Position numbers and translations under genes: made by a program. The notes under the pieces are model-generated. The model made no database searches. It was not told where the DNA came from and saw nothing but the letters and a program-made list of their open reading frames with translations. A DNA stretch of 64,000 bases from Propioniciclava sp. MC1595 (lineage in GTDB: Bacteria; Actinomycetota; Actinomycetes; Propionibacteriales; Propionibacteriaceae): assembly GCF_017569205.1 (NCBI RefSeq), contig NZ_CP071870.1, positions 806,001 through 870,000 on the forward strand, in the 5' to 3' direction. The first letter of the stretch is position 1. The number at the start of each line of letters is the position of its first letter. Shown here piece after piece: positions 11,481 to 47,104 of the stretch.

Positions 11481-11514
11481 CAAGCCCTCGGCGCCCGCGC
11501 CGAGGGCTTGAGTT
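11481..11514. terminator. Rho-independent terminator built from 22-nt repeat units
   Basis: CAAGCCCTCGGCGC (11481-11494) pairs perfectly with GCGCCGAGGGCTTG (11497-11510) over 14 bp, and AGTTTT follows. The arms are two inverted copies of the intergenic 13-nt core described for cluster A. Confidence 0.8.
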
Positions 11515-11554
11515 TTCTGCGCCGAGGGCTTGGGTTTCCCCGGTCCAGGGCGTG
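11481..11554. repeat. 22-nt-period intergenic repeat, cluster A
   Basis: The core CAAGCCCTCGGCG occurs at 11481-11493. Its complement CGCCGAGGGCTTG occurs at 11498-11510 and again exactly 22 nt later at 11520-11532. A degenerate copy (9 of 13 matching) lies another 22 nt on, at 11542-11554. Confidence 0.75.
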
Positions 11555-11592
11555 GGTTTGGGAGACCCCGCGCCGGGTGGCTGCCGGAGGCC

Positions 11593-11598
11593 TAGGCT
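11593..11598 (+). promoter_or_regulatory. -10 element of leaderless pgi
   Basis: TAGGCT ends 7 nt before the pgi ATG at 11606. No Shine-Dalgarno sequence is present in the gap. Confidence 0.55.
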
Positions 11599-11605
11599 GG
11601 CGTCC

Positions 11606-13270
11606 ATGAGTGATGTCACCAAGACCGACGCCTGGGGCACGCTGACCCGGCTCAAGGAGAACTTCACCCCCGACCTGCGCGGCTGGTTCGAGGCTGACCC
11701 GAACCGCGCGAAGGCCTGGACGCGCGCGGCGGGAGACCTGCACGTCGACCTGTCGAAGAACCTGATCGACGACGAGGTCTTGGACGCCCTGGTCGCTCTC
11801 GCCGACGAGGTCGACCTGGCCGGCAAGCGCGACGCGATGCTGTCCGGCGTCCACATCAACAACACCGAGGACCGGGCGGTCCTGCACACGGCGCTGCGGC
11901 GTCCGAGCACCGACCAGCTCACGGTCGACGGCCAGGACGTGGTCGCCGACGTCCACGCCACGCTCGAGAAGGTGTACGCGTGGGCCGACAAGGTCCGCTC
12001 GGGGGAGTGGAAGGGCGTCACCGGCCAGCCGATCAAGACCGTGGTCAACATCGGCATCGGCGGCTCCGACCTGGGCCCGGTCATGGTGTACGAGGCGCTC
12101 AAGGCCTACAAGCAGGACGGCCTGGAGTGCCGGTTCGTCTCCAACATCGACCCCAGCGACGTCTACGAGAAGACGGTCGACCTCGACCCGACGACCACGC
12201 TGTTCATCGTGGCGTCCAAGACGTTCACCACGCTCGAGACCATCACCAACGCCAACATGGCGCGCACGTGGCTGCTCGAGGGGCTCGAGAAGGCCGGCGC
12301 GATCGACGGGTCGGACTCCTCGCGCACCGACGCGATCGCCAAGCACTTCGTCGCCGTGTCGACCGCCCTCGACAAGGTCGCGGACTTCGGCATCGACCCG
12401 GCCAACGCCTTCGGCTTCTGGGACTGGGTCGGTGGCCGCTACTCGGTCGACTCCGCGGTCGGCACCCCGATCGTGGTCGCCATCGGGCGTGAGAACTTCG
12501 AGGACTTCCTCGCCGGCTTCCACGCCATCGACACGCACTTCGCCGAGACGCCGTGGCGCGACAACGTGCCCGCGCTGATGGGCCTGCTCAACGTCTGGTA
12601 CGTGAACTTCTTCAAGGCGCAGAGCCACGCGGTGCTGCCGTACGCGCAGTACCTGCACCGCTTCGCGGCGTACCTGCAGCAGCTGACGATGGAGTCCAAC
12701 GGCAAGGGCGTGAAGGCCGACGGCACCCCGGTCACCACCGAGACCGGTGAGGTCTTCTGGGGCGAGCCGGGCACCAACGGCCAGCACGCCTTCTACCAGC
12801 TGATCCACCAGGGCACGCAGCTCATCCCGGCGGACTTCATCGCCGTGGCGACGCCGCACCGCGCCCTGACCGACGGCGGCCAGGACGTGCACGAACTGTT
12901 CCTGGCGAACTTCTTCGCCCAGACCAAGGCGCTGGCGTTCGGCAAGACCGCCGACGAGGTGCGCGCCGACGGCGTGGCCGAGGAGCTCGTGACCGCCAAG
13001 GTGTTCAAGGGCAACCGCCCGACGACGTCGATCATGGCCCCGTCCCTGACCCCGTCGGTCGTCGGACAGCTGATCGCGCTGTACGAGCACATCACGTTTA
13101 CCCAGGGCGTGGTGTGGGGGATCAACAGCTTCGACCAGTGGGGCGTCGAGCTGGGCAAGGTCCTCGCCAAGCAGATCACCCCGGCCATCGGCGGCGACGC
13201 CGAGGCCCTTGAGGCCCAGGACCCGTCCACCAAGGCCCTCATCGAGTACTACCGGGCGAACCGGGCCTGA
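11606..13270 (+). CDS. pgi: Glucose-6-phosphate isomerase
   Basis: A 554-residue cytoplasmic enzyme interconverting glucose-6-phosphate and fructose-6-phosphate. Family signatures are visible: [42 protein letters not shown], the catalytic Glu region [20 protein letters not shown] and the C-terminal [13 protein letters not shown]. The length is normal for the bacterial long form. ATG 11606 is preferred to an upstream in-frame codon because TAGGCT sits 7 nt before it and homology starts there. With ppgK nearby it links glucose phosphorylation to glycolysis. Confidence 0.97.
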
Positions 13271-13282
13271 CGCCGTAGGGCG

Positions 13283-45869: not shown

Positions 45870-46015
45870 GACGCCTCCATGCGCTCATGTGATCTACCAC
45901 CGTAACTCTTCCTGCCCCGTGCGGGGTAGAGGGCGTGGCAAGGCTCTGGTCGTGATGGGTCGTGTGGTGGCAGGGTTCTCCCGCCCACCCGCGGCACCGA
46001 CAGGAAGGACGCCCC

Positions 46016-46420
46016 ATGGCGCAGCAGCTCAACCCCTACATCACGTTCAACGGCGACTGCGCCGAGGCGATGGCGTTCAACGGCGAGGTCTTCGGGGCCG
46101 AGCCGCAGGTGTCGTCGTTCCGCGACTCGGGGATGGACATCGACGGGGTCATGCACGCCTCGGTCAGCGCCCCGAACGGCTTCAACATCTTCGCGTCCGA
46201 CTTCGCCGAGGGGATGGGCGACTACAACCCGGGCACCAACGTGCAGATCAGCCTGTCGGGTGATGAGGCCGAGGCGCTGCAGGGGTACTGGGCCAGGCTC
46301 GGCGAGGGCGGTCAGGTCGTCATCCCTCTGCGGCAGCAGATGTGGGGCGACGAGTACGGCCAACTCGTCGACCGGTTCGGGATCATCTGGCACGTGAACA
46401 TCGCGGGGTCGGCTGGCTGA
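46016..46420 (+). CDS. VOC-family protein (PhnB-like)
   Basis: A 134-residue vicinal-oxygen-chelate fold protein. It begins LNPYITFNGDCAEAMAFNGEVFGAEP, the PhnB-like start. Further pieces are HASVSAPNGFNIFASDF, TNVQISLSGDEAEALQGYW and the C-terminal DRFGIIWHVNIAG. Activity is unknown; family members bind metals or small ligands. AGGAAGGA lies upstream of the ATG. Confidence 0.87.
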   Translation: MAQQLNPYITFNGDCAEAMAFNGEVFGAEPQVSSFRDSGMDIDGVMHASVSAPNGFNIFASDFAEGMGDYNPGTNVQISLSGDEAEALQGYWARLGEGGQVVIPLRQQMWGDEYGQLVDRFGIIWHVNIAGSAG

Positions 46421-46461
46421 ACGGGGCCCCGCGACGCCGGAACAGGGGGGAGGATGGGTGC

Positions 46462-47067
46462 ATGAGCCCCCGCGTCCCCCCTCCCCGTTTGGCCGCCCCT
46501 CGCCCTGTGGGTGGCGCTCGTCGGGTCGTCGGGTGGCTGCTCGTCGGAGGGCTGGTGGGGCTCCTGGTGGCGGTCGTCCTGCCCACGGGGCTCGCGGCGT
46601 GGTCGATGTCGGCGTGGTTCACGTCCCAGGACGCCGGGCGGTTCGACCAGGTCGAGGCCCGGCTGGCCGGGGGCGGGAGTCGTACGCGGCGGCGTCCGAC
46701 CGGGTGCGCGCGTTGGCGTCGCAGGATGAAGGCACGAGCCGGGTGGCGCTCACCAGCACGCTGACCTGTCGGACGGTGGGGGGGACTCGAGACGTGCGCT
46801 GACTCGACCGCGGCCGACGCGGAACTGATGTCGTCGGCGCGCGCGGAGGTGGCGATCTGGCAGGCGCGCGACGGCGATCGCGTCTACTACCGGTTCTTCG
46901 GCGAGGACGCCCCCACGGTGTGGCTCATGGATGGGCCACCCGCGGAGGATGCGCGCGCGTTCGCCCGCGAGCGCGGGTTCCGGTCGGTTCGCGTGGTCGA
47001 CGACCGGTGGGCGGTCCTGGGTCCCATCACCGACCACGCCCGGCTCGTGGCCCAGTGGGAGGGCTGA
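46462..47067 (+). pseudogene. Frameshifted gene for a membrane-anchored protein
   Basis: Reading through two G-runs restores one protein of about 200 residues. Codons 46462-46670 give an N-terminal anchor (VVGWLLVGGLVGLLVAVVLP). After the GGGGG at 46669-46673 the sense frame shifts to ESYAAASDRVRALASQDEG. After the G7 run (46778-46784) it returns to ETCADSTAADAELM and continues to VVDDRWAVLGPITDHARLVAQWEG. One G missing and one G extra would explain it. Either a real pseudogene or a homopolymer sequencing error. Confidence 0.6.
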
Positions 47068-47069
47068 GC

Positions 47070-47104
47070 CAAGCCCTCGGCGCGAAAAACTCAAGCCCTC
47101 GGCG
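47070..47104. repeat. 22-nt-period intergenic repeat, cluster E
   Basis: Two identical cores in reverse orientation, CAAGCCCTCGGCG at 47070-47082 and 47092-47104, lie exactly 22 nt apart with the spacer CGAAAAACT. They lie between the frameshifted gene and the dnaK promoter. Confidence 0.75.

Follow-up and report, generated by a model that had tools for sequence, protein, structure and literature searches.

The window analysed here, a 64,000-nt stretch of the 3.43-Mb, one-contig genome of Propioniciclava sp. MC1595 (G000), carries short arrays in five of its intergenic regions. The arrays are built from a repeated unit that consists of a 13-nt core, CGCCGA[GC][AG]GC[CT][CT]G, followed by a 9-nt spacer. 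The five arrays, and a companion motif that adjoins one of them, are as follows.

11472..11541, both strands: array of three units (one on the minus strand, two on the plus strand) behind the gene at 10430-11458
19224..19267, plus strand: two direct units with divergent genes on either side; the gene at 19287, which starts 19 nt on, is by its look presumably an arginyl-tRNA synthetase
24869..24934, plus strand: three direct units, the first one degenerate
43782..43888, both strands: converging cluster of three plus units and then two minus units, flanked by convergent genes and beginning 1 nt past the end of the plus-strand gene
43887..43906, minus strand: companion motif GCGGCGNNGCGGGAGGC, with ACG after it, directly adjoining the array at its outer end
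47061..47104, minus strand: two direct units, the spacer of one end unit overlapping the end of the gene called at 46828-47067; the gene that follows, at 47222, we take to be dnaK-like

The first-pass annotation had described about 15 copies of the core in five intergenic regions, and this count holds (3+2+3+5+2 = 15 units, some degenerate). Exact matches to the core, CGCCGANRGCYYG, also number 15 in the window, against 0.79 expected and a maximum of 3 in 100 shuffles. Three of these exact cores, at 36684, 48004 and 59893, are inside gene calls and look like chance matches. The claim that no copy falls in a gene is thus right for the arrays, except that the 47061..47104 array overlaps a stop codon at 47061, and wrong for the bare motif. 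Direct neighbours lie 22 nt apart in all cases across the five intergenic clusters. A motif-free test of lags 14 to 60 recovered the same step: 5 of 40 intergenic window regions passed, with a best lag of 22 in all five, whereas none of 40 shuffled versions of the window gaps did.

Across the whole G000 genome the core is commoner than expected, with 218 exact copies against 29 for a reversed-pattern control. Spacings other than 22 nt are not equally common: when gaps of 0-30 nt were allowed, all 40 same-strand exact-core pairs had a gap of 9 nt, and the control gave 0 pairs. A looser core finds 63 pairs in G000, with a step of 22 in 45 of the 45 listed; steps of 21 nt occur rarely in the family. 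Inverted neighbours are separated by gaps of 4-45 nt, so the 22-nt distance originally assigned to adjacent copies at large is a property of direct neighbours. Units lie on one strand only in 24 of 32 G000 clusters. The spacers, which had been called variable, do vary more than the cores, but they are not free; positions 2-5 tend to S-TTC and are partly conserved. The unit comes in the flavours GAGGGCTTG, GACAGCCTG and GAGAGCCCG, with GACAGCCCC as an additional flavour in P. sinopodophylli, and mixed flavours keep register within a single array (G000 424566-424675). The companion motif GCGGCGNNGCGGGAGGC, allowing at most one mismatch, has 5 copies in 643 kb of G000, and all five overlap arrays or lie within a few nucleotides of them, 283 of the 643 kb having been selected around arrays.

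Array density along the genome is uneven. The gaps of 18 further 20-kb stretches, chosen outside array loci, hold no lag-22 repeat, and of the 29 exact-pair clusters of G000, 26 are in the half nearer the origin (p 1.5e-5). We place no weight on an avoidance of the terminus, since 19 of the 29 clusters fall in one 480-kb stretch and the listed arrays of the closed genome G005 span 0.1-2.75 Mb.

The core was also searched for in relatives, with spacing and position tabulated, and the 22-nt family is present in 5 of 13 Propioniciclava genomes. Looser-core pairs number 250 in P. sinopodophylli KCTC 33808 (G009), 63 in G000, 63 in the MAG G007 (72% complete), 7 in the MAG G006 and 3 in G012; the remaining genus genomes have 0-3 and controls 0-2. 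Among 100 listed pairs of the 250 in P. sinopodophylli, the step is 22 in 99 and 21 in 1. In G000, G007 and G009, trpG at the trpG/pabA locus is flanked on both sides by arrays, which differ in flavour and unit number; in the other ten genomes the gaps are short or the neighbour is a different one, and by eye G006 and G012 hold single unit-like remnants there. For 16 of 32 G000 clusters, G009 or G007 has an array no more than 100 nt from the end of the orthologous gene, and many of the places are therefore old; for the other 16 the ortholog is outside the fetched array loci or the array is further away. In the gap orthologous to window positions 11459-11605, a hairpin followed by T is visible by eye in G012 and G004, and a unit-like hairpin in G007.

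P. sinopodophylli and the MAG CALMPQ account for 70 of the 96 stretches returned by a scan across named genomes. One of the remaining 26 belongs to the Propioniciclava-group MAG S3R_St_70 (G006). The other 25 occur one per genome (two in Nonomuraea turkmeniaca), 10 in gene calls and 15 outside, and at least 7 of these 15 non-genic, outside-genus stretches are 11-nt simple repeats. Streptomyces neyagawaensis (L126) and Cellulomonas cellasea (L142) each have a single locus with four 22-nt units. An isolated 22-nt tandem repeat can therefore occur outside Propioniciclava; many arrays per genome were seen only within it. A viral collection gave one exact match for each repeat family.

Two further families of similar build were found in the genus. 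In G004, from which the 22-nt family is absent, the unit is CACGTGGCGC with a step of 20/19, giving 75 pairs against 0 in the other 12 genus genomes and 0 in the control. In G005 it is GGGCGRYYCGT with a step of 20, giving 159 pairs against one in G004 and zero in the remaining genus genomes. Steps in G004 are 20 (114), 19 (62), 22 (6) and 21 (4), and in G005 20 (265), 19 (22) and 21 (7), the step scripts having permitted only 19-22 and 19-21, respectively, and the gapped pair searches 1-30. Plus arrays are followed by minus arrays, as inverted pairs, in 19 of 26 G004 clusters, and the centre of these converging clusters spans 32 nt in 17 of 18 measured and 29 nt in one. Runs in G005 reach 23 units; by eye, the arrays of some G005 clusters point away from a central hairpin rather than towards each other. 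As judged from their sequences, then, two sister species carry arrays of similar build and unrelated core. That the arrays are made from such different sequences suggests a little-known, fast-changing type of protein-binding site.

A clear family was not found in the stretches examined of G008 (300 kb) and G011 (100 kb). In other genera, 19 stretches totalling 345 kb were examined; a repeat was present in 19 gaps, in 7 cases at a lag of 18-23 (lags 14-60 were tested), whereas shuffled sequence gave 4 such gaps, one at lag 19 and none at 18 or 20-23. These repeats, different in sequence each time, hint that such families exist beyond Propioniciclava. We do not claim families in other genera: the G025 candidate, GTCSGGGCAT with a step of 19, amounts to just 3 pairs at 2 loci, plus two step-15 pairs in G033.

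Clusters are over-represented in convergent gaps and under-represented in divergent ones. The count took in 170 clusters from five genomes and all three families; 13 that fell within a gene call or at the margin of a contig or stretch were dropped. Convergent gaps hold 55 of the 157 clusters compared with 57 of 292 background gaps, all of these from G000 (p 2.7e-4), and divergent gaps hold 16 of 157 compared with 66 of the same 292 (p 6.4e-4). Genome by genome, the convergent excess reaches p <0.05 in three (G000, G009, G005) but not in the other two (G007, G004). Hugging of stop codons is a trait of the 22-nt family only, among the three: the nearest facing stop is at most 15 nt away in 22/28 clusters of G000, 26/39 of G009 and 26/31 of G007, compared with 2/23 in G004 and 7/20 in G005. 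In two genes (MazG-like; gene at 3157517) the unit itself supplies the stop, xCG CCG AGG GCT TGA encoding a C-terminus of PRA and stop; an offset of -14 nt from the stop, seen in 4 cases, fits such a unit-supplied stop. Within same-direction gaps of three genomes, 38 arrays point the same way as the genes and 32 the opposite way. Some orientation bias exists: in G000 the 5' side of the array lies within 14 nt of the stop in 19 of the 25 arrays in which it faces one, and the 3' side in 8 of 23.

The genes beside the arrays are ordinary and differ by place, and a binding protein was not identified among them. We noticed no linked initiator or transposase among these neighbours and found no recurrence of a transfer gene. 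One protein family does recur, accounting for 5 of 444 neighbouring proteins in 4 genomes. It may be DUF559 (a nuclease), but its match is sub-threshold (13 bits against a cut-off of 20.6, E 0.096); a genus search with PF04480 was positive in 11 of 13 genomes (none in G004 or G011) and did not list the recurrent neighbour gene itself, which makes it a weak test. We leave this putative nuclease gene as a weak link. Gene cassettes between inverted arrays (plus arrays, then minus arrays about 0.3-1.2 kb on) were likewise set aside, in that most of the enclosed genes that were read are ordinary (for example trpG/pabA, a response regulator and a thiolase) and relatives have trpG without arrays.

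Folding separates the inverted clusters from the direct arrays. Converging clusters fold far below shuffles, with z of -8.0, -7.8, -5.2 and -5.2 in G000 and -6.0 in G004. Within the window, the 43782..43888 cluster has an RNA z of -8.01, and the inverted pair at 11472-11545 has z -4.63. In five folds, the window's three direct-only arrays showed no more structure than shuffled sequence (z +0.34 for 19224..19267; -1.01 and -0.38 for 24869..24934; +0.70 and +0.47 for 47061..47104). The inverted units of the 11472..11541 array form a 13-bp stem followed by a U-tract, so that the site at 11481-11510 has the GC hairpin and U-tract of an intrinsic terminator; a terminator with a U-tract was not found in 43700-47300, though the 43782 cluster folds strongly. 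Whichever explanation of the arrays is right, some inverted clusters probably act as terminators. The RNA role that the first-pass annotation had raised is accordingly disfavoured as a general one by the direct-only arrays (z -1.0 to +0.7), but the inverted clusters do fold (z -4.6 to -8.0).

We compared units in triples with exact outer cores, in which the middle unit is not chosen by its own core. Core and spacer differences between the middle and left units were 0.053 and 0.308 in G000 (13 triples), 0.010 and 0.124 in P. sinopodophylli (61), 0.067 and 0.185 in G007 (15), 0.046 and 0.308 in G004 (26), and 0.106 and 0.244 in G005 (61). Adjacent G000 units differ at 0.31 of their spacer sites; if neutral indel:substitution ratios of 1:20 to 1:8 are assumed, this divergence predicts 6 to 16 changes of spacer length among 45 spacers, and none was observed in the listed G000 pairs. 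Adjacent spacers are nevertheless more alike than spacers from different arrays in 5 of 5 genomes, most so in P. sinopodophylli (identity 0.74 against 0.50) and least in G004 (0.44 against 0.37), and local duplication therefore explains part of the regular step. Taken together, these sequence comparisons indicate that cores and spacer length persist as the spacer sequence drifts, and that arrays grow partly by local duplication. The fetched loci were chosen by core or step and so are biased, which the gapped pair searches and the middle-unit test lessen but do not remove.

The arrays thus have a locked step, a conserved core, a tolerant spacer, a preference for the 3' ends of genes and a core that is species-specific. 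We propose, with a probability of roughly 45%, that they are phased recognition sites of a lineage-specific putative DNA-binding protein, set within a REP-like repeat population. Protein binding, contact between copies of the protein along the DNA, and function are what we infer. Each 20-22-nt unit would be one asymmetric recognition site, and the protein would assemble on neighbouring sites about two helical turns apart. The arrays would be REP-like interspersed repeats that persist behind genes as harmless or useful there, and that may grow through local duplication of units. Converging arrays would form a strong hairpin, and part of the population is probably a set of bidirectional 3' boundaries, because converging arrays are predicted to form hairpins and the site at 11481-11510 has the form of an intrinsic terminator. 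The annotation's suggestion of a protein on one face of the helix is only partly sustained. Putative protein binding gains support because the step is locked and the cores are conserved while spacers vary, because arrays occur in either orientation behind genes, and because the two unrelated families of sister species step by 20 and by 20/19, so that all three families keep close to two helical turns; a single face fares less well, as two turns take 21 bp and steps of 20 and 22 bp each miss that by about 1 bp.

The main rival is a purely selfish repeat population, in which a putative transposase or recombinase copies or moves the units, to no use of the cell, and the step is the length that the enzyme requires. 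It overlaps with our phased-site proposal, because such an enzyme would also bind the sites. Families that are species-restricted and wholly different between sister species would be natural for such repeats, as would the precise 32-nt centre in G004, and the gene-context preference resembles that reported for REPs in PMC3733652. We nevertheless consider it somewhat unlikely that selfishness is the whole account: the arrays near orthologous gene ends (16/32) indicate that many places are old, a recurrent mobility gene was not seen among the 444 neighbouring proteins, and the viral collection yielded just one exact match per family. Mobilisation by RAYT was rejected, with PF01797 found in 0 of 13 genus genomes, although the same search was positive in 5 of 14 control genomes. 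A protein-free origin, in which terminator hairpin arms were tandemly duplicated by replication slippage and the step equals one arm and its tail, appears improbable. It would account well for the resemblance of the unit to a 3' stem arm with a T-rich tail, for the hairpins seen by eye in G012, G004 and G007 at the gap orthologous to 11459-11605, for enrichment between convergent genes and for the likeness of adjacent spacers. It sits poorly with the one-strand clusters (24/32), three of which were folded and gave no fold, with the G004 spacers, hardly more alike within arrays (0.44) than between them (0.37) while steps stay at 19-20, and with different flavours in one register at G000 424566-424675.

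Two other readings seem to us very improbable. An element of 3' UTRs that acts at the RNA level, by being bound or processed in the transcript, would suit the stop-codon placement of the 22-nt family and the strong hairpins of converging clusters, but the near-even orientation in same-direction gaps (38 and 32) means that the transcript carries either strand, and the tested direct arrays fold no better than shuffles. The arrays also bear a likeness to the clt-like sites of Streptomyces TraB systems or to uptake sequences, both being short, lineage-specific repeated sites, and the cores differ between species much as dialects do. A DNA transfer or uptake signal is hard to reconcile, though, with phased arrays in gaps in place of scattered single sites, and with neighbours among which a transfer gene does not recur. 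PMC4170104 concerns another plasmid protein.

Beyond the phased-site proposal lies a bolder one, which we regard as rather doubtful: that the arrays form an undescribed class of phase-locked arrays whose core is swapped wholesale between sister species and co-evolves with a fast-changing putative DNA-binding protein. With the same reserve, it would cover CGCCGANRGCYYG at 22, CACGTGGCGC at 20/19 and GGGCGRYYCGT at 20, three unrelated cores within one genus, and if true it would be a bacterial counterpart of satellite-protein co-evolution. We found no paper describing such arrays in the open-licence PMC literature. If a protein does read them, it would be a new factor that binds the chromosome or disperses repeats, with a specificity that differs from one sister species to the next. 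Closed genomes and a culturable type strain make direct testing possible, and the fixed core and step offer a simple handle for finding such families elsewhere.

Several known systems share part of this architecture. Plasmid iterons and the end sites of the transposons Tn7 and Mu consist of 19-22-bp protein sites in tandem, phased with the helix; each is a single locus belonging to one element, whereas Propioniciclava has dozens of chromosomal arrays. The MIRU of mycobacteria are tandem intergenic units of about 46-100 bp that can sit at stop codons. The arrays resemble them as tandem intergenic units at stops, and differ by their description, a 22-nt unit made of a short core and a loose spacer. 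A CRISPR array, in which almost identical repeats of at least 20 nt alternate with unique spacers at one or a few loci close to cas genes, is unlike them too, given the 13-nt core, the 9-nt, partly conserved spacer and the dozens of loci among ordinary genes. The TAACTGA repeats of Beggiatoaceae, according to PMC4679880, form many intergenic direct-repeat sets, with 2-6 copies per set in the Guaymas genome; the 7-mer lies mostly just 5' of start codons and is shared by several phyla. The two systems are alike in having many intergenic sets of short direct repeats, but the Propioniciclava core is a 13-mer that stands behind stops and is confined to species within one genus.

Among the interspersed repeats of bacteria, the palindromic REPs, which are tied to RAYT transposases, have been studied best. 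PMC3733652 describes REPs as species-specific, extragenic and present in many copies, behind genes or between convergent genes, with opposite units able to form larger hairpins. The arrays share with REPs, REPINs and BIMEs their species restriction, extragenic position, high copy number and preference for gene ends and convergent gaps. The niche is the same and the build is different: Propioniciclava units run head to tail in a locked step of about two helical turns, and the 22-nt unit is not palindromic. The palindromic unit or inverted pair of REPs and REPINs is not a feature of the 22-nt family, with its 24 of 32 one-strand clusters, and RAYT was found in none of the 13 genus genomes. By eye, neither the GTAG nor the CGTC tag of REPs is in the 22-nt core, and CGTC occurs within the G005 unit. 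Because the 22-nt family departs from REPs in both the palindrome and RAYT, we file the arrays as interspersed extragenic repeats of a variant distinct from REPs.

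The origin-proximal half of the chromosome of Propioniciclava sp. MC1595 (G000:C1) holds 26 of the 29 exact-pair clusters of the 22-nt family found chromosome-wide, and 19 of the 29 lie between 420 and 900 kb. Steps of 21 nt are rare within the family (G006, a MAG, L247; P. sinopodophylli G009:C9 7852; G012:C210 2083).

Arrays stand on both sides of the following gene:

G000:C1 2687564-2688755, array-flanked gene with eno on one side and a mazG-like gene on the other

The C-terminal part of its product matches DUF559 only below threshold. The orthologous gap is also array-flanked in P. 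sinopodophylli and in the MAG G007. In G006, a similar-looking gene adjoins an array.

Recent gene exchange, arrays included, likely took place between the MC1595 species and P. sinopodophylli, because the thiolase-side gene end (G000:C1 3157465-3157530 versus G009:C3 11323-11379) shows 100% identity across the query, and both array pairs listed at this locus are letter-identical, whereas the other gene ends common to both genomes are mostly 67–94% alike. The lysS end and a response-regulator gene are among the few further shared gene ends at 98–100%.

Outside the genus, lags of 18–23 nt occur in 7 of 19 repeat-bearing gaps (19 stretches from other genera). G025, a genome of another genus, contains a small array:

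L363 8416-8596, converging, step 19 nt, core GTCSGGGCAT

Genome-wide, this core forms 3 pairs only, at 2 loci. Two other Propioniciclava genomes carry array families of their own, both unrelated to the 22-nt family. Arrays of GGGCGRYYCGT in G005 (L381-L397, L339, L341) have a step of 20 nt and longest runs of 23 units; by eye, the runs appear as blocks with an inverted hairpin between them. Arrays of CACGTGGCGC in G004 (L398-L420, L284) have a step of 20/19 nt, and the centre between converging arrays is 32 nt in 17 of 18 measured clusters.
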